Below, piece by piece: positions 26,759-34,914 of a DNA stretch of 34,914 bases (positions are counted from its first letter, which is position 1; each line of letters begins with the position of its first letter). Origin of the DNA: a virus; the IMG/VR virus record IMGVR_UViG_3300028920_000178, positions 1 through 34,914 of that record; one strand, given 5' to 3'. The notes under the pieces are model-generated. The model was not told the origin of the DNA, searched no databases, and was given only the letters and a program-made list of their open reading frames with translations. The translations under genes and the position numbers were made by a program.

Positions 26759-26873
26759 AAATAACGTTAAATGGATAGTAATACTAACTAAACAACGGTA
26801 TGCAAATAAGAAGCGTACACTATGAAATTTAGGAAAAGATTAATAATAGTTACTAAACTCAAATAACCGTGTG

Positions 26874-27290
26874 ATGGCAAAAATGATAACACCTTTTAGT
26901 TGTGGCACTGAAGCAATGGACTGGCTTTGTAATAATTGTGAGCAATGCAAAAGAGCCTACAAACCAAAACCAGGAGAAGAAGAATATCCAGACTTTGACG
27001 AAACAAAAAAGCTAGTTGAGCAAGGCAAGGAATGTAAATTAAAGTTTGATTTAGATTTTGCATTTGTTACAGGGGAGATGCCGGAAGAAACCGCAAAGCA
27101 GATCGGTTATAAAAATGGTAGACTTAGTTGGTCTTGTATGATGATGATAGATGATGATGGTCGCGGTTTCAATTATGATGATATAAAGCCAATTGATGAT
27201 ATACCAGATAACCAATTATGCCTACCCTTTGCAATGGATGAAATTTTGAACGGTGCGGTGGCAGAAACTTCAAGCAAAGTGAGTGTATGA
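26874..27290 (+). CDS. Cys-rich hypothetical protein, first cassette gene (138 aa)
   Basis: 138 aa from ATG 26874 (a GTG at 26871 in frame would add one residue). The N-terminal half has clustered cysteines (FSCGTEAMDWLCNNCEQCKR) and another at GKECKLKFDLDFA, with one more at LSWSCMMM, suggesting metal binding. The middle FVTGEMPEETAKQIGY is shared with small proteins of this type that I associate with Bacteroidota phages. No enzymatic motif. It is preceded by the left array border and followed by the hairpin at 27303. Confidence 0.65.
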   Translation: MAKMITPFSCGTEAMDWLCNNCEQCKRAYKPKPGEEEYPDFDETKKLVEQGKECKLKFDLDFAFVTGEMPEETAKQIGYKNGRLSWSCMMMIDDDGRGFNYDDIKPIDDIPDNQLCLPFAMDEILNGAVAETSSKVSV

Positions 27291-27302
27291 TTTTTATTTG
27301 CT

Positions 27303-27358
27303 GTTGTACGTTGGCGGCCTGTTTTCGGGTTTATAAGTTAGGCCGCTTGCGCTACAAC
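27303..27358 (+). repeat. Cassette repeat B (inverted repeat, 56 bp)
   Basis: Left arm GTTGTACG...GCGGCCT (27303-27320) pairs with AGGCCGC...GCTACAAC (27340-27358), giving two stems separated by a small internal loop. The right arm is followed by G, ATTAG, TATATG (27365-27370) and GTGTCG, the common right flank of the family. Confidence 0.7.
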
Positions 27359-27407
27359 GATTAGTATATGGTGTCGGCTGACGATAGGAAGCTGCACTAT
27401 ATACATT

Positions 27408-27421
27408 GTTACCTGCTGTAC
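27408..27421 (+). repeat. Cassette repeat C, left arm
   Basis: GTTACCTGCTGTAC, of the family form GTT...GC-TGTRC. It is preceded by GCACTATATAC (27394-27404), which is nearly the inverse of the flank after its partner arm. The partner AGTATTGCCGGTAACG is at 28172-28187, so this pair encloses the whole methyltransferase gene. Confidence 0.6.
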
Positions 27422-27441
27422 GGATTAATTAAAAACGAAAT

Positions 27442-28173
27442 ATGATTAGAAACACGATACATAAAGGGGATTGCCTTGAATTGATGCCGAAACTTATTGA
27501 TGACAACAGTATTGATATGATTTTTTGCGATTTACCTTACGGAACTACAAAATGCAAGTGGGATAGTGTAATTAACTTACCTAAATTGTGGAGCGAATAT
27601 GAAAGAATGATTAAAGATAATGGCGTTATTCTTCTATTTGCACAAAGCCCATTTGATAAGGTACTTGGAGCGAGCAACCTAAAACTACTGAAGTATGAAT
27701 GGATTTGGGAGAAGACTTCTGCCACAGGACATTTGAACGCTAAAAAAATGCCAATGAAAGCACACGAGAATTTGTTGGTTTTTTACAAGAAGCCCCCAAC
27801 TTATAACCCACAAAAAACAAGTGGACACGAAAGAAAGGTTAGTAAAGCAGAACATAAAACCAACTGCAAGGAAAGTGAGGTTTATAATAAGGGGCAGAAG
27901 TTGACGACCTATGATAGCACCGAAAGATACCCAAGAAGTGTACAGGTTTTTGCGAGCGATAAACAAAAAAGTAAATTACACCCGACTCAAAAGCCATTAT
28001 CTTTAATTGAGTATATGATACGAACTTACACTAACAAAGGAGATTTGATACTTGATAATACTTGTGGTAGCGGAACTACTGGACTTGGAGCAAAAAATCT
28101 TAAACGAGATTATATTATGATGGAGCAAGACCCTGAACATTACGAAACTGCCTGTAAAAGAGTACTAACGTAG
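27442..28173 (+). CDS. DNA methyltransferase, N6-adenine/N4-cytosine type (beta class)
   Basis: 243 aa. The catalytic motif IV comes first as DLPYGTT (residues 30-36, a DPPY variant), and the AdoMet-binding motif I last as LDNTCGSGTTGLGA (about 204-217), the beta-class order. Between them lie SFDKVLGASNLKLLKYEWIW-type segments and a Lys-rich target-recognition part. LHPTQKPLSLIEYMIRTYT is the characteristic motif X region (HPTQKP). It would methylate an amino group in a short DNA target, probably to protect phage DNA. No partner restriction enzyme is seen. The gene lies inside the arms of repeat C, and its stop TAG overlaps the right arm. Confidence 0.9.
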   Translation: MIRNTIHKGDCLELMPKLIDDNSIDMIFCDLPYGTTKCKWDSVINLPKLWSEYERMIKDNGVILLFAQSPFDKVLGASNLKLLKYEWIWEKTSATGHLNAKKMPMKAHENLLVFYKKPPTYNPQKTSGHERKVSKAEHKTNCKESEVYNKGQKLTTYDSTERYPRSVQVFASDKQKSKLHPTQKPLSLIEYMIRTYTNKGDLILDNTCGSGTTGLGAKNLKRDYIMMEQDPEHYETACKRVLT

Positions 28174-28187
28174 TATTGCCGGTAACG
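28172..28187 (+). repeat. Cassette repeat C, right arm
   Basis: AGTATTGCCGGTAACG begins in the stop codon of the methyltransferase and is complementary, with one small bulge, to 27408-27421. It is followed by TATATG (28194-28199) and GTGCGC. The same arrangement, right arm starting in a TAG stop, occurs at 30157. Confidence 0.6.
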
Positions 28188-28202
28188 TTTAATTATATGA
28201 AT

Positions 28203-28224
28203 AGTGCGCCCTCGCATACGCACT
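28203..28224 (+). repeat. Secondary hairpin of cassette right flank
   Basis: AGTGCG (28203-28208) pairs with CGCACT (28219-28224). An equivalent GTGCG...CGCAC hairpin is at 30810-30831, and GTGGCG...CGCAC at 30189-30205. It seems to be a second conserved part of the repeat family. Confidence 0.5.
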
Positions 28225-28282
28225 ACACTACATACGAGTTATAAACCTCCACGGATTGCGAGCGTGGGCAATACTTAATAAA

Positions 28283-28480
28283 ATGAGTGATTTTAAAACA
28301 AGATTAGTTGAAGAGAAAAAGCAACTTGAAGACAAAACATTGAAGCTTGCAAGCTTTACAGGTACAACAACATTTGAAGAACTGGACTTTGATAACCAGA
28401 TGTTGCTTAGAGCGCAACTAAACGCAATGAACGCCTACCTTGATATTTTGATACTGAGGATTGAAAAAGTGGGTGCGTAG
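28283..28480 (+). CDS. Small conserved phage protein (65 aa, crAss001_48-like)
   Basis: 65 aa from ATG 28283. An in-frame TTG at 28256 would add nine residues but lies inside two hairpins. The sequence MSDFKTRLVEEKKQLEDKTL, then FTGTTTFEELDFDNQMLLRA and QLNAMNAYLDILILRIE, is of a small helical type widespread in phages of many hosts; I believe databases call it crAss001_48-related. Two helices separated by a short loop are predicted, probably forming a hairpin. Function unknown. It stands alone between repeats C and D. Confidence 0.65.
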   Translation: MSDFKTRLVEEKKQLEDKTLKLASFTGTTTFEELDFDNQMLLRAQLNAMNAYLDILILRIEKVGA

Positions 28481-28523
28481 GCAAAATGTTGATACGAGCT
28501 ACAGCGCATTATTTATATAATGT

Positions 28524-28552
28524 GTTGTAGTTTCGTTTTAATGAACTACAAC
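28524..28552 (+). repeat. Cassette repeat D (short perfect hairpin)
   Basis: GTTGTAGTT (28524-28532) and AACTACAAC (28544-28552) form a perfect 9-bp stem with an 11-nt loop. A second small palindrome, CATTAT-TTAT-ATAATG (28507-28522), lies directly before it at the place of the TATATA box in other family members. Confidence 0.6.
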
Positions 28553-28598
28553 GGTTTGGGTAAGAACAGTACGACAATAACAGATAAAAATTCATTAA

Positions 28599-29291
28599 AT
28601 GAACGAATGTAAAAAAATAAAAAAAGGGGAGGGGAAATTTAGAATATTAAACCTTTACGCATGTTTAGGCGGAAACCGCTATAAGTGGGATGAAGTGGCA
28701 AAACAATTAGGAATTGAAATTGAAGTTACAGCCGTTGAACTTGACCCAGAATTAGCCAGGATGTACCGTGAGCGATTCCCAAATGATATTGTAATAATTG
28801 CAGATGCACACCAATATTTATTAGACCATTACAAAGAATATAATTTTATATGGACTTCGCCACCATGCCCGACACACACTAGAATACAAATGAGCATGCA
28901 TACGACTAGGGAAATGCAATACCCAGATATGAAGCTTTACCAAGAGATTATATTTTTAAACTCATTTTACAAAGGCAAATATGTAGTTGAAAATGTAATA
29001 CCGTATTACGAACCATTGATACCAGCTAAAAAAAGACATAGGCATTTATATTGGACTAACTTTAATTTGCCTAATGTATTGACAACACGAAAAGTATTAA
29101 TTGGCAGCGGCAAGGATGAAGTAAAAAAGCTTTGTGAATTTCACGAAATAAATGTTAATGACTACAATGGAGAGCAGCGCAAAGATAAAATTGCCAGGAA
29201 CCTTGTTGATTATGAAGCTGGAAAGACAATATTAGCAACTGCACTTGGAATTATAAAACACAGCAACCATGAAATACCGACTTTGTTCTAA
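28599..29291 (+). CDS. DNA (cytosine-5) methyltransferase
   Basis: 230 aa, shorter than typical cellular enzymes. Conserved motifs: I, ILNLYACLGGN (residues 16-25, a variant of the FxGxGG loop); acidic ribose contact VELDP (46-50); IV, SPPCPTH with nucleophile Cys90; VI, VVENV (129-133); VIII-like RHRHLYW near 151; and X-like YEAGKTILATAL near the C-terminus. It should methylate cytosine C5 in a short site. The short region between VIII and X leaves only about 50 residues for target recognition. It lies alone between repeats D and E, without a restriction partner, as expected for a phage self-protection gene. Confidence 0.85.
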   Translation: MNECKKIKKGEGKFRILNLYACLGGNRYKWDEVAKQLGIEIEVTAVELDPELARMYRERFPNDIVIIADAHQYLLDHYKEYNFIWTSPPCPTHTRIQMSMHTTREMQYPDMKLYQEIIFLNSFYKGKYVVENVIPYYEPLIPAKKRHRHLYWTNFNLPNVLTTRKVLIGSGKDEVKKLCEFHEINVNDYNGEQRKDKIARNLVDYEAGKTILATALGIIKHSNHEIPTLF

Positions 29292-29292
29292 T

Positions 29293-29331
29293 GGTTTTGA
29301 AAAAACCAAGGCGCGCGGGCTTTTTATTTTT
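29293..29331 (+). terminator. Possible terminator after C5 methyltransferase
   Basis: GGTTTT/AAAACC hairpin (29293-29307) is followed by a GC-rich stretch and a T-rich tract at 29321-29330. The stem is weak and the T tract is not adjacent, so the call is tentative. Confidence 0.3.
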
Positions 29332-29390
29332 TGGTCTAACTTGTAGAAAGTTTCATCAAAAAACTGAAATAAGTATTGTTTTTACCCGTT

Positions 29391-29477
29391 GTTAGCGTTA
29401 TGTGCCTTTTGCTTAGCTGCAACGGCTGTTCAAATTGGCACAAATGTTAAATTAAAGTTTTGGCATTAACGCTAACG
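29391..29477 (+). repeat. Cassette repeat E (87 bp)
   Basis: Left arm GTTAGCGTTATGTGCC (29391-29406), right arm GGCATTAACGCTAACG (29462-29477), with a 55-nt inner part. The inner sequence begins TTTTG, contains AAATGTTAAA and ends in TTTT before the right arm. It is similar along its length to repeats H and I. Confidence 0.75.
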
Positions 29478-29538
29478 AGATGCAAATATGAGTAGCCAAA
29501 ATTACGGAATTGAAACACTAAACTAGTAATAAAATATT

Positions 29539-29742
29539 ATGGAATTTAAAACAAAACACATTGGACATACAGGGCACTTTGCTTCAAGTATAATAGAAGT
29601 GACTGTTAGTATAGATGGTGCTGAAATAACAGAAGAAGTTACAAACCTATACTCTAAAATAGAACCTGATTTTATTACGGCATTACGAGAGCTTGCTGAT
29701 GAATTGGAAGAACAAAATAACAAGATAGCAGAAGGTGAGTAA
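29539..29742 (+). CDS. Small hypothetical cassette protein (67 aa)
   Basis: 67 aa, acidic. The N-terminal half has strands (FKTKHIGHTGHFASSIIEVT, VSIDGAEIT) and the C-terminal half is a helix (DFITALRELADELEEQNNKI). No cysteines or membrane span. I do not recognise it. It stands between repeats E and F, with an A/T-rich leader (TAATAAAATATT) before ATG, and is the only open frame of that interval. Confidence 0.55.
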   Translation: MEFKTKHIGHTGHFASSIIEVTVSIDGAEITEEVTNLYSKIEPDFITALRELADELEEQNNKIAEGE

Positions 29743-29763
29743 TTTTTGTTACTTATATTTGCT

Positions 29764-29876
29764 GTTATTAGCTGGCTGGGCTGCTTTTGCAGAGGCAGAG
29801 AGAAAGGAGCGAAGTTTTGAAGGGCTGCAACCTGAAGTATTGATTAAGTCGCCTTTCGCCCAGCTTGCTTATAACG
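29764..29876 (+). repeat. Cassette repeat F (113 bp)
   Basis: Left arm GTTATTAGCTGGCTGGGC (29764-29781) pairs with GCCCAGCTTGCTTATAAC (29858-29875). The inner part differs from E, H and I. After the right arm come GTATGG and GTGTCG (29890-29895), the common right flank. Confidence 0.7.
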
Positions 29877-29944
29877 TGCCACGTGTATGGTGTCGTGGCG
29901 TATAAATAGCACCAAATTATCAATAACATAAAAAACTTAATAAA

Positions 29945-30157
29945 ATGGAAAAAACATTAAACAACTTAGAAACTAAGCCATGCACTATACACGGTGTTGT
30001 ATGCTGTGGCGTGTTAGAAAAAATGAACTTAGGATGGATGAAACTTGAAGATGGAACTAAATGTGTGCCTTACATAAAAGGTCATTCAGATGAAGTAATG
30101 TATCGAGTAAACAACTGCCCATCCTGTGGTAAATATGTTAGGGATGTGATGATTTAG
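29945..30157 (+). CDS. Small Zn-finger-like cassette protein (70 aa)
   Basis: 70 aa. Cysteines occur as PCTIHGVVCC near residues 13-22 and as NCPSCGK near 58-64, so a small zinc site is probable. The middle is KLEDGTKCVPYIKGHSDE. No catalytic motif. The left arm of repeat G lies inside its coding sequence (29996-30010, coding CCGVL), and the right arm begins with the last base of its stop codon. Its leader ACTTAATAAAATG is identical over 13 nt to that of the 28283 gene. Confidence 0.6.
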   Translation: MEKTLNNLETKPCTIHGVVCCGVLEKMNLGWMKLEDGTKCVPYIKGHSDEVMYRVNNCPSCGKYVRDVMI

Positions 30158-30172
30158 CCATTGCATACAACG
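29996..30172 (+). repeat. Cassette repeat G (arms around coding sequence)
   Basis: Left arm GTTGTATGCTGTGGC (29996-30010) and right arm GCCATTGCATACAACG (30157-30172) are an imperfect inverted pair of the same form as repeat H. GCACTATAC precedes the left arm at 29982, and TATATG follows the right at 30179. The interval between arms is coding sequence of the 70-aa gene. Confidence 0.6.
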
Positions 30173-30247
30173 AATTGGTATATGAAATGTGGCGACTTTA
30201 CGCACGAATGATAAATTGAAAAACTAACAAGTAAAAGAAAAATAGCG

Positions 30248-30634
30248 ATGGGATACACAAAAAGAAAATGCGACTATTGCGGAAAAGAATACATGGCAGA
30301 TAACCGCAACTTAAAACGTGGGTGGGGTTTATGTTGCTCGAAAAAGTGCGCAGCGAATAAGCGTGAAAAAAGCAAGCCTAATTACAACCCAGAACGAGTT
30401 GCTGCTAATAATATAAAAAGAGCTAATTACCAAGCAGAAGCTTATGAGCGTGGGGCGAATGCCTTTGCAAGACGTAGAGGTTTTCCAGATTACGAAAGCA
30501 TGCAAGATAATATAGCGATGGATGACCCAAGTTGGGATTCGCATGGCGGTGTTGAAATTGCTATTTGCGACTGCTGCAACCTACGTGCAGATTATTGCAG
30601 ATGTGGTGAGGGTTTGGATATGGTTGATTTGTAG
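30248..30634 (+). CDS. Zinc-ribbon-like cassette protein (128 aa)
   Basis: 128 aa. The N-terminal part is a four-cysteine site: CDYCGKEY (Cys 8 and 11) and LCCSKKC near residues 29-34, in the style of NHR/HNH-associated or treble-clef zinc ribbons often seen in Bacteroidota phages. A helical, basic middle follows (NPERVAANNIKRANYQAEAY), then a second Cys cluster (CDCCNLRADYCRCGEG) near the C-terminus. It probably binds nucleic acid or protein; no nuclease residues are evident. The leader AAAAATAGCGATGG is the same as before the 30872 gene. Confidence 0.65.
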   Translation: MGYTKRKCDYCGKEYMADNRNLKRGWGLCCSKKCAANKREKSKPNYNPERVAANNIKRANYQAEAYERGANAFARRRGFPDYESMQDNIAMDDPSWDSHGGVEIAICDCCNLRADYCRCGEGLDMVDL

Positions 30635-30711
30635 CGTGGGATTTTCTTTTACGCCCAGTATAGCACGGAACTATATTAAATGAACGATAGCAGCCATTTT
30701 TTATATACCGT

Positions 30712-30792
30712 GTTGTACGCTGTGCTTTTTTTACAAGGCGTAAATGTTAAAAGTCTAGTATAATAATTAGATTTTTAGCATTGCGTACAACG
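30712..30792 (+). repeat. Cassette repeat H (81 bp)
   Basis: Left arm GTTGTACGCTGTGCT (30712-30726), right arm AGCATTGCGTACAACG (30777-30792). The inner part starts with seven T, contains AAATGTTAAA and ends with ATTTTT, as in repeats E and I. TATATACC precedes it. Afterwards come GGTATG and the GTGCG/CGCAC hairpin (30810-30831). Confidence 0.75.
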
Positions 30793-30871
30793 ACTTGCAA
30801 CATAGGTATGTGCGCCCAACCGATTACGCACAGAAGTTGAAACGAAGTACTAATTAAAAACAAAAATAGCG

Positions 30872-31096
30872 ATGGAAAAAGTTGAATTAAAAGTAGAGAG
30901 AACAATAGGAGTTAGTGGAAGTACTACCAAGTATGTGGAAGTTGAAAAACAGCAGACGCCAACAAAAACAAGGCGACTTGCAGAACTGGTATTCTGCAAT
31001 GAATACATCAACAGAGATGCTGAAATAGCAAGGTTCGACAGCCTGACCGCTGCAAAAAAGTTTGCAAACCTAAAAATATCATCAAGAATCATGTGA
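30872..31096 (+). CDS. Small hypothetical cassette protein (74 aa)
   Basis: 74 aa, basic. The N-terminal half is strand-like with alternating Val/Glu (VELKVERTIGVSGSTTKYVE), the C-terminal half helical (RDAEIARFDSLTAAKKFANL). One cysteine only. I do not recognise a family. It is the single open frame between repeats H and I, and starts after the shared AAAAATAGCGATGG leader. Confidence 0.55.
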   Translation: MEKVELKVERTIGVSGSTTKYVEVEKQQTPTKTRRLAELVFCNEYINRDAEIARFDSLTAAKKFANLKISSRIM

Positions 31097-31170
31097 GGGC
31101 TTTTGTTTTTTAATTGCCCCAATTACGCACTGAATTACCTACGAGAAAAGGCGCATTACCTATGTTGCTT

Positions 31171-31255
31171 GTTAGCAACTGTGCCTTTTTAATAGTGAGA
31201 TGAAGTACCAAGTTAGCGCAATGTTTGATATAGATTTTAGGCATTGTTGCTAACT
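31171..31255 (+). repeat. Cassette repeat I (85 bp)
   Basis: Left arm GTTAGCAACTGTGCC (31171-31185), right arm GGCATTGTTGCTAAC (31240-31254). The inner 54 nt begin TTTTTAAT, contain GCAATGTTTGA and end ATTTTA. It is followed by TATATG at 31262-31267. This is the right-hand end of the array. Confidence 0.75.
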
Positions 31256-31299
31256 ACGTTATATATGCACCTTTTGTATAACAAATTAAACCTAAACAT

Positions 31300-31491
31300 A
31301 TGAGCTACAAAGGATTAACAAAAGCCTATCCAATAAGACTAACTAAAGATCAGGATAACGCTTTAAACATATTGCAATCAAAAGGCTTTAAAAAGTCTTT
31401 GTTTATCCGGCTGGCAATAGATGAAAAACTTAAAAGAGATTACCGAATAACTTTAAAAGCACTTGAACCAAAAGAAAAATTACCTTTTTAA
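31300..31491 (+). CDS. Ribbon-helix-helix-like small protein (63 aa)
   Basis: 63 aa. The pattern of a short strand (KAYPIRLTKDQDNAL), a helix (NILQSKGFKKSLFIRLAIDE) and a basic tail fits the ribbon-helix-helix (Arc/MetJ-type) fold used by small phage repressors, with phrases such as SxFIRxAIxE. It probably binds DNA as a dimer. It lies just right of the cassette array and just left of the strong promoter at 31502, so it may regulate the recombination operon. Confidence 0.6.
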   Translation: MSYKGLTKAYPIRLTKDQDNALNILQSKGFKKSLFIRLAIDEKLKRDYRITLKALEPKEKLPF

Positions 31492-34318: not shown

Positions 34319-34914
34319 ATGGCACAAGATAAAAATAGTTTTTTAGCGTATGCGGATTGGATTTATGTAATAGAAAAACTTTCCGACGTACAAGCCGGCC
34401 AAGTATTTAAACACTTGTTAAGATATGTTAACGATCAAAACCCTGAGTTTAACGATCAATTACTTGAAATTGTTTTTGAGCCTATAAAGCAGACTCTAAA
34501 AAGAGATTTAAAGAAATACGAAAAAATAAGAGGCAAACGATCTAAGGCTGGTAAAGCAAGTGCTGAAGCTAGGCGATTAACAAAAGAAAACAACCTAGAG
34601 CAAAATCAACAAGTGTTAACAAGTGTTAACAAAAGCCAACAAGCTTTAACAAATTCAACTGTTAGTGTTAGTGATAGTGTTAGTGATAGTGTTAGTGATA
34701 GTGTTAGTGATAGTGTTAGTGATAGTGTTAGTGATAGTGAAAACACAAACAACATTATTTTGAGTGAGGGACAAGAAAAGTTAATTAAAAGTTTATGCGA
34801 AGTTTTCGGAATTTCAGAACAAAGACAGTTTCAAAGCTACGCCCTTTTAATTAATGCTATAAGAAAGCAAATAACAGACGGTAATTATGATTTGTTTAAA
34901 ACCCAGGTTAATTA
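34319..34914 (+). CDS. Replication-initiator/replisome-organiser-like protein, N-terminal part (continues at window start)
   Basis: The frame runs off the window end and continues in frame at the left end (stop at 388), total 274 aa. Residues 1-95 (NSFLAYADWIYVIEKLSDVQ, AGQVFKHLLRYVNDQNPEF, then IKQTLKRDLKKYEKIRGKRS) match the DUF6291-type N-terminal domain of phage replication proteins. A Lys/Arg helix and Gln/Asn linker follow. Residues 115-140 are a Ser-Val-Ser-Asp repeat coded by 12-bp units. The C-terminal domain begins near 147. It probably loads the host helicase at an origin. As in lambda O, the origin may lie inside this gene, at the repeats. Confidence 0.75.
   Translation, partial: MAQDKNSFLAYADWIYVIEKLSDVQAGQVFKHLLRYVNDQNPEFNDQLLEIVFEPIKQTLKRDLKKYEKIRGKRSKAGKASAEARRLTKENNLEQNQQVLTSVNKSQQALTNSTVSVSDSVSDSVSDSVSDSVSDSVSDSENTNNIILSEGQEKLIKSLCEVFGISEQRQFQSYALLINAIRKQITDGNYDLFKTQVN
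34661..34738 (+). repeat. 12-bp tandem repeat inside replication gene, possible iteron origin
   Basis: Six perfect copies of GTTAGTGATAGT (34667-34738) are preceded by a half unit (34661-34666). A second small direct repeat, AACAAGTGTT twice, lies about 50 bp before it. The unit codes for Val-Ser-Asp-Ser and joins the two protein domains. The place inside a replication-protein gene is that of iteron origins in several phages. Confidence 0.8.
34756..34914. repeat. Right copy of 159-bp terminal direct repeat
   Basis: Identical to 1-159 except at 34775 (G for T) and 34893 (T for G). This copy keeps the replication gene open (GAA where the left copy has TAA; TTG where the left has TGG). It lies wholly inside the replication gene, not at a packaging site. 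Confidence 0.9.

Follow-up and report, generated by a model that had tools for sequence, protein, structure and literature searches.

A methyltransferase gene as the probable cargo of a mobile unit within an integron-like cassette array of a phage

Introduction

Why does a complete DNA methyltransferase gene in a phage genome lie between the two arms of an inverted repeat, with the right arm starting inside its stop codon? The gene belongs to the window analysed here, a stretch of 34,914 nucleotides (positions 1 to 34,914 of IMG/VR record IMGVR_UViG_3300028920_000178), and an earlier note on this DNA had proposed that it occupies the loop of an element. Integrons are the textbook case of single-gene movement via a folded DNA strand, and the I2 domain of their integrase IntI is held to make recombination of the folded strand possible. 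We compared the locus with related phage sequences, with the recombinase genes found beside similar arrays and with integrons.

Results

The window belongs to a tailed phage, with terminase, portal and head protease genes. Its two ends (1-159 and 34756-34914) are 98.7% identical over 159 bp, indicating that the contig is probably a complete genome, either circular or terminally redundant. A tandem 12-base repeat, TGTTAGTGATAG, is present in about six copies at 34660-34743, within the last ORF.

The arms were confirmed where they had been described, GTTACCTGCTGTAC at 27408-27421 and AGTATTGCCGGTAACG at 28172-28187. They enclose an N6/N4 DNA methyltransferase gene on the plus strand (27442-28173; PF01555, E 2.2e-30; phrog_67, E 3e-73), and the right arm does open on the final two letters of the gene's TAG stop codon. 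The left arm is composed of a stem, X, GTTACCTGC, and the inner motif TGTAC (27408-27421); the right arm is composed of the inner motif GTATT and X', GCCGGTAAC, and ends at AAC| (28173-28186, the bar marking the cassette boundary). Base pairing of the arms alone was not above chance, GTT..AAC nonamer pairs with at least 8 of 9 pairs being common among the window matches listed. What distinguishes the arms is a variable 9-nt stem X (GTT...) combined with a fixed inner motif, WGTRC after the left X and GYATT before the right X'AAC. A combined search for stem and inner motif gave 106 matches in 136 sequences, mirror-image hits included, whereas mononucleotide shuffles gave 9. A TAG at the start of the right arm is a habit of the element family: judged by letters only, regardless of frame, TAGTA.. 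or TAGCA.. opens this arm in 46 of the 76 non-redundant elements, which come from 49 contigs.

A related methyltransferase gene carrying the right motif without a left arm, the case named beforehand as speaking against an element, was looked for and found in none of 82 loci. The exact right motif was present at the gene end in 10 of these loci, and in all 10 a left arm matched it at 8 to 9 of 9 pairs; the remaining 72 had neither motif. A separate two-arm search recovered 9 of the 82 methyltransferase loci and none of 281 control windows. The nearest relatives of the methyltransferase, in L002 (84% identical) and in Tenacibaculum phage Larrie (85%), have no arms, which indicates that the gene also occurs outside cassettes. 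The earlier note had further proposed to look for other genes between like arms and for versions of the element with a short loop. At positions 1340-1625 of array L083, TACATTGTTACCACC-AGTAC..GTATT-GGTGGTAAC encloses a different and shorter ORF, likewise ending at TAG, and short-loop versions are present in the window itself (C3, C4, C7 and C8, see below).

The methyltransferase gene thus lies between its arms, as had been claimed, but the mobile unit is larger and the arms are not its ends, since the unit extends between successive AAC| boundaries and contains a second arm pair. Eight such cassettes, C1 to C8, all on the plus strand, occupy 26797-31254. Each contains two nested pairings: X/X', which are the arms described above, and P1/P1', in which P1 is formed by the first bases past the AAC| boundary and P1' by the bases just before the left arm. 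The methyltransferase cassette, C2, extends from 27359 to 28186, and its P1 (GTATATGGTGTCGGC, 27364-27378) has as partner its P1' (GCTGCACTATATAC, 27391-27404). The pairing of the outer flanks, GCACTATATA against TATATGAATAGTGC, which the earlier note counted to the one repeat, exists but is secondary: it joins P1' of C2 to P1 of the next cassette with a score of 11.2, while each partner matches better within its own cassette (15.2 and 18.7).

In C1 (26797-27358) P1 follows AAC|GG, the ORF is at 26871-27290, the left arm, GTTGTACG, is at 27303 and the right arm, ..CTACAAC|, ends at 27358; its X/X' pairing is weaker than that of the other copies. Pairing of C1 was scored from 26794, 3 nt before the true start, the AAC|GG boundary following 26796. 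C3 (28187-28552) has P1 at 28191-28210 and P1' at 28503-28521 around a crAss001_48-like gene (28283-28480; PF21825, E 2.5e-18), followed by a short X hairpin at 28524-28552. C4 (28553-29476) carries a C5 methyltransferase gene (28599-29291; PF00145) in the P loop and an X hairpin at 29391-29476. The same layout was found in C5 (29477-29875; ORF 29539-29742, X hairpin 29764-29875), C7 (30172-30791; ORF 30248-30634, X hairpin 30712-30791) and C8 (30792-31254; ORF 30872-31096, X hairpin 31171-31254). The gene therefore lies between P1 and P1' in C1, C3, C4, C5, C7 and C8, and between X and X' in C2. In C6 (29876-30171) the ORF (29945-30157) begins in the first (P) loop, crosses P1' and then, at 29996, the left arm, and has its stop at the right arm. 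Left arms inside ORFs are translated (GTTGTTAGCGGTAGTGC giving VVSGSA) in L083 at 5725, in L084 at about 3345 and in the window at 29996, the site being part of the protein. Of the 57 elements whose P1 was clear, 43 combined a short P loop with an X loop longer than 200 nt, 4 were the reverse, 4 had two long loops and 6 two short ones; these counts are biased, as many loci were fetched by way of their methyltransferase or recombinase.

The array stops at 31254, AAC|TACGTTATATATG, with an end site as in recombinase-bearing phages: the attI-like sequence AAC|TACGTTATATATGCACC (31255-31275, plus strand) matches the recombinase-adjacent site of other phages. Past the array end, a protein of 63-65 residues, ribbon-helix-helix-like by eye, is encoded both in the window (31300-31491) and in Flavobacterium phage hemulen6-1 (L088, 4036-4233); it is possibly an array-linked regulator.

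When all P1 and P1' segments of the window were scored against each other in an 8x8 matrix, the own partner ranked first in all 8 rows and columns, with a mean of 17.4 for own pairs and 8.8 (sd 1.9) for the others. The sum for own P1/P1' pairs was reached in 6 of 100,000 random permutations, which is about the frequency of drawing the identity itself, and X/X' was likewise best with its own partner (2 of 100,000 permutations). Elsewhere, own P1/P1' pairs scored at least 11 in 57 of 76 non-redundant elements, as compared with 21 of 760 swapped pairs. In computed folds, closing a cassette at AAC| turned P1'-X-X'-P1 into a single long hairpin that bulges by a few bases next to the join. This circle fold was best with the own P1 in 7 of the 8 window cassettes, the exception being C4 (-19.7 kcal/mol with its own P1, -20.7 with the best swap), and of the circle-junction folds that of C8 was the most stable. 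Folded locally, 27340-27430 was no stabler than shuffled sequences (z -0.24). Chance pairing of the C2 arms, against which the arm pair alone would be insufficient, was ruled out once the inner motif, the related sequences and the 8x8 matrix were taken into account.

Comparison of relatives revealed similar cassettes with different neighbours; the related contigs compared here and below are not independent. One cassette of 335 bp recurs at 99-100% identity in three contexts (L091 and its duplicate L111, L104, and L105), while its flanks, over 60 nt on each side, are only 23-47% alike, and the change falls exactly at AAC|. L105 and L111 share a 310-bp cassette with the same pattern of near-identity and differing flanks. 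C8 of the window and a cassette of L086 have nearly all first bases past AAC|G in common, and the cassettes that precede them differ. For the methyltransferase cassette, likeness at the DNA level to the homologous two-armed cassette of Cellulophaga phage phi13:2 spans P1' (27398) to AAC (28186), the proteins being 59% identical. Three consecutive methyltransferase cassettes are found in hemulen6-1, and Polaribacter phage P12002L (L214) has strict elements at 40158-40544 and 40768-40939 on the minus strand, near an HNH endonuclease gene. In whole-locus alignments, 3' ends of similarity were enriched at the full right-arm motif (23/195 against 72/3900 controls). The 5' starts of similarity were enriched neither near a shared AAC (34/198, against 796/3960 control positions) nor near GTT (18/198, against 442/3960); upstream breakpoints were blurred in these alignments, which we count against the cassette model. 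Some methyltransferase cassettes diverge from just before GTT and have a different P1/P1' pair (L025 compared with L027). A single AAC| boundary would leave this divergence unexplained, and the comparison suggests that the P hairpin is exchangeable too. At 8300-8680 of L027, the left arm GTTAGG and the right arm ATATAAC of one cassette are mismatched (by eye), as recombination hybrids would be.

The named phages bearing these elements infect Cellulophaga, Flavobacterium and Polaribacter, the rest being metagenomic. No phage similar to array L083 was present in the phage collection searched, and a search of plasmids found methyltransferase similarity alone. The strict DNA element pattern had 0 matches in bacterial genomes; the one-arm pattern had 21, in assorted species.

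Array L027 leads into a gene for a tyrosine recombinase, and a search with this recombinase identified 78 viral loci. We examined 65 of them and left out 13 that matched only in part or had no upstream sequence. In 64 of the 65 loci, AAC followed within five bases by TATAT was found at most 150 nt upstream of the recombinase gene; with a stricter initial criterion, AAC directly followed by TA, the count was 57/69. The conserved array-end site is ATTnnnnnTAAC|TATnATATA. A logo over 54 loci reads ATT-N5-TAAC|TATnATATA, the portion left of the bar being the right arm of the last cassette. Six non-duplicate pairs were 100% identical over the 100 nt past AAC| and 27-57% identical over the 60 nt before it. 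Strict elements at recombinase loci were all upstream and on the strand of the recombinase gene (43, with 0 downstream and 0 on the other strand), and a strict element was seen at only 19 of 38 listed recombinase loci. No empty array-end site was observed either, and we count both points against the cassette model.

The L027 recombinase is Xer/IntI-like (NF040815, E 7e-55; PF00589, E 3e-38). Its score with the integron integrase profile TIGR02249 is 160.8 bits, under the cut-off of 265, its relatives of solved structure are XerA/XerD-like, and the R, K, HxxR, H and Y catalytic residues of Xer-type enzymes are retained in the alignment. The IntI-specific insertion (I2) is absent from the phage recombinases: residues 210-249 of IntI1 (40 residues) are missing, as defined by residues present in at least 3 of the 4 IntIs and in at most 10% of 50 phage rows, and residues 181-243 of IntI4 align with just 13 residues of the phage recombinase. 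A tree was built from 63 sequences, leaving out three short ones; in it, 46 phage enzymes and 2 from bacterial assemblies group together, apart from the IntI group (support 100). A highly divergent tyrosine recombinase, far outside the main group of the tree, is encoded directly after the cassette array of L084 (4486-5319); it is perhaps a second recombinase type serving like sites. Only 1 of 395 Bacteroidota genomes had a match at E <=1e-65. L218 (an Aequorivita bin) and L231 (a Bacteroidota genome) encode recombinases 55% and 48% identical, with a similar attI-like site upstream, and are likely prophages or binned phage contigs. No strict elements were found beside the recombinases of two Bacteroidota plasmids or of Cellulophaga phage Ingeline. 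The phrog_2 terminase profile matched in 7 of 20 recombinase- or array-bearing contigs checked, the viral origin of the other 13 being the IMG/VR classification.

No tyrosine recombinase gene was found in the window genome, nor in 13 of 16 records searched, many of which are fragments. This suggests that the window cassettes are either moved by an enzyme acting in trans or now fixed.

Discussion

These comparisons make it very probable that the methyltransferase gene travels as cargo in a mobile cassette and that this cassette is part of an integron-like array. The argument draws on features of the DNA itself: the cassette boundaries, the pairing within each cassette, the swapped neighbours, the end site and the adjacent recombinase. 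The divergence from just before GTT, the circle fold of C4, the remote position of the L084 recombinase and the lack of a tyrosine recombinase gene in the window and in most records searched weigh against the cassette model. From these we infer a mechanism in which the cassette would move as a circle, its cut ends being joined at AAC|. In the circle, a single strand P1'-GTTX ... X'AAC-P1 would fold into a long bulged hairpin, the equivalent of attC, and the phage-coded Xer/IntI-like tyrosine recombinase beside the array would cut at AAC. Insertion would target either the attI-like ..TAAC|TATnATATA beside the recombinase gene or the AAC of another cassette; the window phage would rely on a recombinase from another phage. 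The gene may occupy either loop of the folded circle, and would thus appear as a gene inside a repeat (C2) or as a repeat between genes (C7, C8). The "gene in loop" therefore describes one of the two arrangements that this circle can take.

On the coding strand of 58 cassettes, the P1/P1' pairs that are not Watson-Crick comprised 111 G.T and 19 A.C. Where P1 is more than 200 nt from the left arm, 9 cassettes elsewhere had 17 G.T and 0 A.C, and the window cassettes had 11 and 2. This excess of G.T over A.C indicates that the coding strand is the strand whose folding is conserved. RNA folding would equally yield such a preference, and the repeats might be RNA hairpins (terminators, attenuators or stability elements), the gene order being altered by ordinary homologous recombination. 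All array genes are indeed on one strand, and in the linear array several X loops form hairpins locally. However, the best pairing joins the ends of one cassette across the gene, over hundreds of bases (C1, C3-C5, C7, C8), and the neighbour adjacent on a transcript pairs worse (6.4-11.2, against 15.2-21.8 for the own partner). Neither the exact joins at AAC|, with unrelated sequence beyond, nor the recombinase at the array end, nor the unremarkable local fold of 27340-27430 fits RNA hairpins, and we regard this explanation as quite improbable.

True integron cassettes, i.e. attC arrays without integrase that derive from a host integron and are moved by the host IntI, are a very improbable source of the array, even though phage attC arrays with methyltransferases, one of them in a Polaribacter phage, have been reported (Qi et al. 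2023, PMC9892861) and the AAC signature is common to integron R boxes (PMC4792948). GTTRRRY fits only 3 of 76 left arms and RYYYAAC only 3 of 76 right arms; moreover the coding strand folds, the genes face the recombinase, and the adjacent enzyme falls below the integron integrase cut-off and lacks the 40-residue insertion. Small transposon-like elements with a transposase acting in trans would also place complete genes between inverted arms, but arms that vary between copies while pairing is preserved within each copy, a single strict triplet at the junctions, and head-to-tail arrays on one strand that end at a single conserved site make them extremely improbable.

The mobile cassette array thus remains our preferred reading, and it shares with integrons the head-to-tail cassettes, an imperfect hairpin site with an AAC/GTT triplet at the join, and a conserved site of the insertion type beside a Xer-related tyrosine recombinase gene, insertion in the phages being presumed from the comparisons. 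The P and X hairpins of the closed circle together resemble an integron attC, which is one long bulged hairpin, and strand-biased folding with a bulge, as in integrons, would fit the excess of G.T pairs and the circle-junction folds. As in integrons, the cassettes carry single genes in one orientation (8 in the window; 43 elements on the same strand), and an attI-type site stands beside the recombinase in all but one of the 65 loci, the window having the site only. In contrast to integrons, the phage recombinase has no IntI insertion and its family is found mainly in viral contigs; the phage arms do not conform to GTTRRRY/RYYYAAC and contain no R box, GTTR alone holding in 74/76 elements; and phage cassettes are joined at the inner (X) box, P1 being the second box on the far side of the join. 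In the phages the coding strand folds, the genes run toward the recombinase and the gene lies in either loop; in integrons the bottom strand is the one used (PMC2727003). As the genes face the recombinase, the polarity of the site relative to it would be as in integrons, with the genes reversed. Lacking the IntI insertion and an R box, the arrays are integron-like in their working but not integrons by definition; apparently they are a virus-borne relative or mimic of integrons. Integron finders requiring IntI and a canonical attC should miss such arrays.

The 17 phage attC clusters of Qi et al. (PMC9892861) are likewise cassette-like arrays with DNA methyltransferases and no integrase, one of them in a Bacteroidota phage. 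They were detected with IntegronFinder and HattCI, and 5 of 6 tested sites recombined with IntI1 (PMC9892861). P12002L, which is among their phages, contains strict elements of the kind found here. Integration of CTXphi by XerCD also relies on Xer-type recombination of a phage site folded from a single strand (PMC4792948), but there the host XerCD act on an entire phage genome, whereas here a phage-coded enzyme lies beside single-gene cassettes. No description of the present system was found in the literature searched, which included few subscription papers and no preprints. If the proposed reading is true, phages could trade methyltransferases and other small genes singly.

On balance we favour the view that the arrays represent a second cassette-recombination platform apart from integrons, mainly in Bacteroidota phages, with an I2-less Xer-like enzyme, a folded coding strand and AAC| joins. 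Such a platform would have two interchangeable loops, and the gene may ride at the position of the terminal loop of an integron attC. Escudero et al. (2016) found it "tempting to speculate" on a viral origin of integrons, and raised the question of how I2 could have arisen without attC sites, or attC sites without I2 (PMC4792948). An I2-less phage recombinase beside arrays of folded cassettes makes this question testable at the bench, and the second platform could have been invented independently, or it could be a surviving relative of the proposed viral, I2-less ancestor of integrons.
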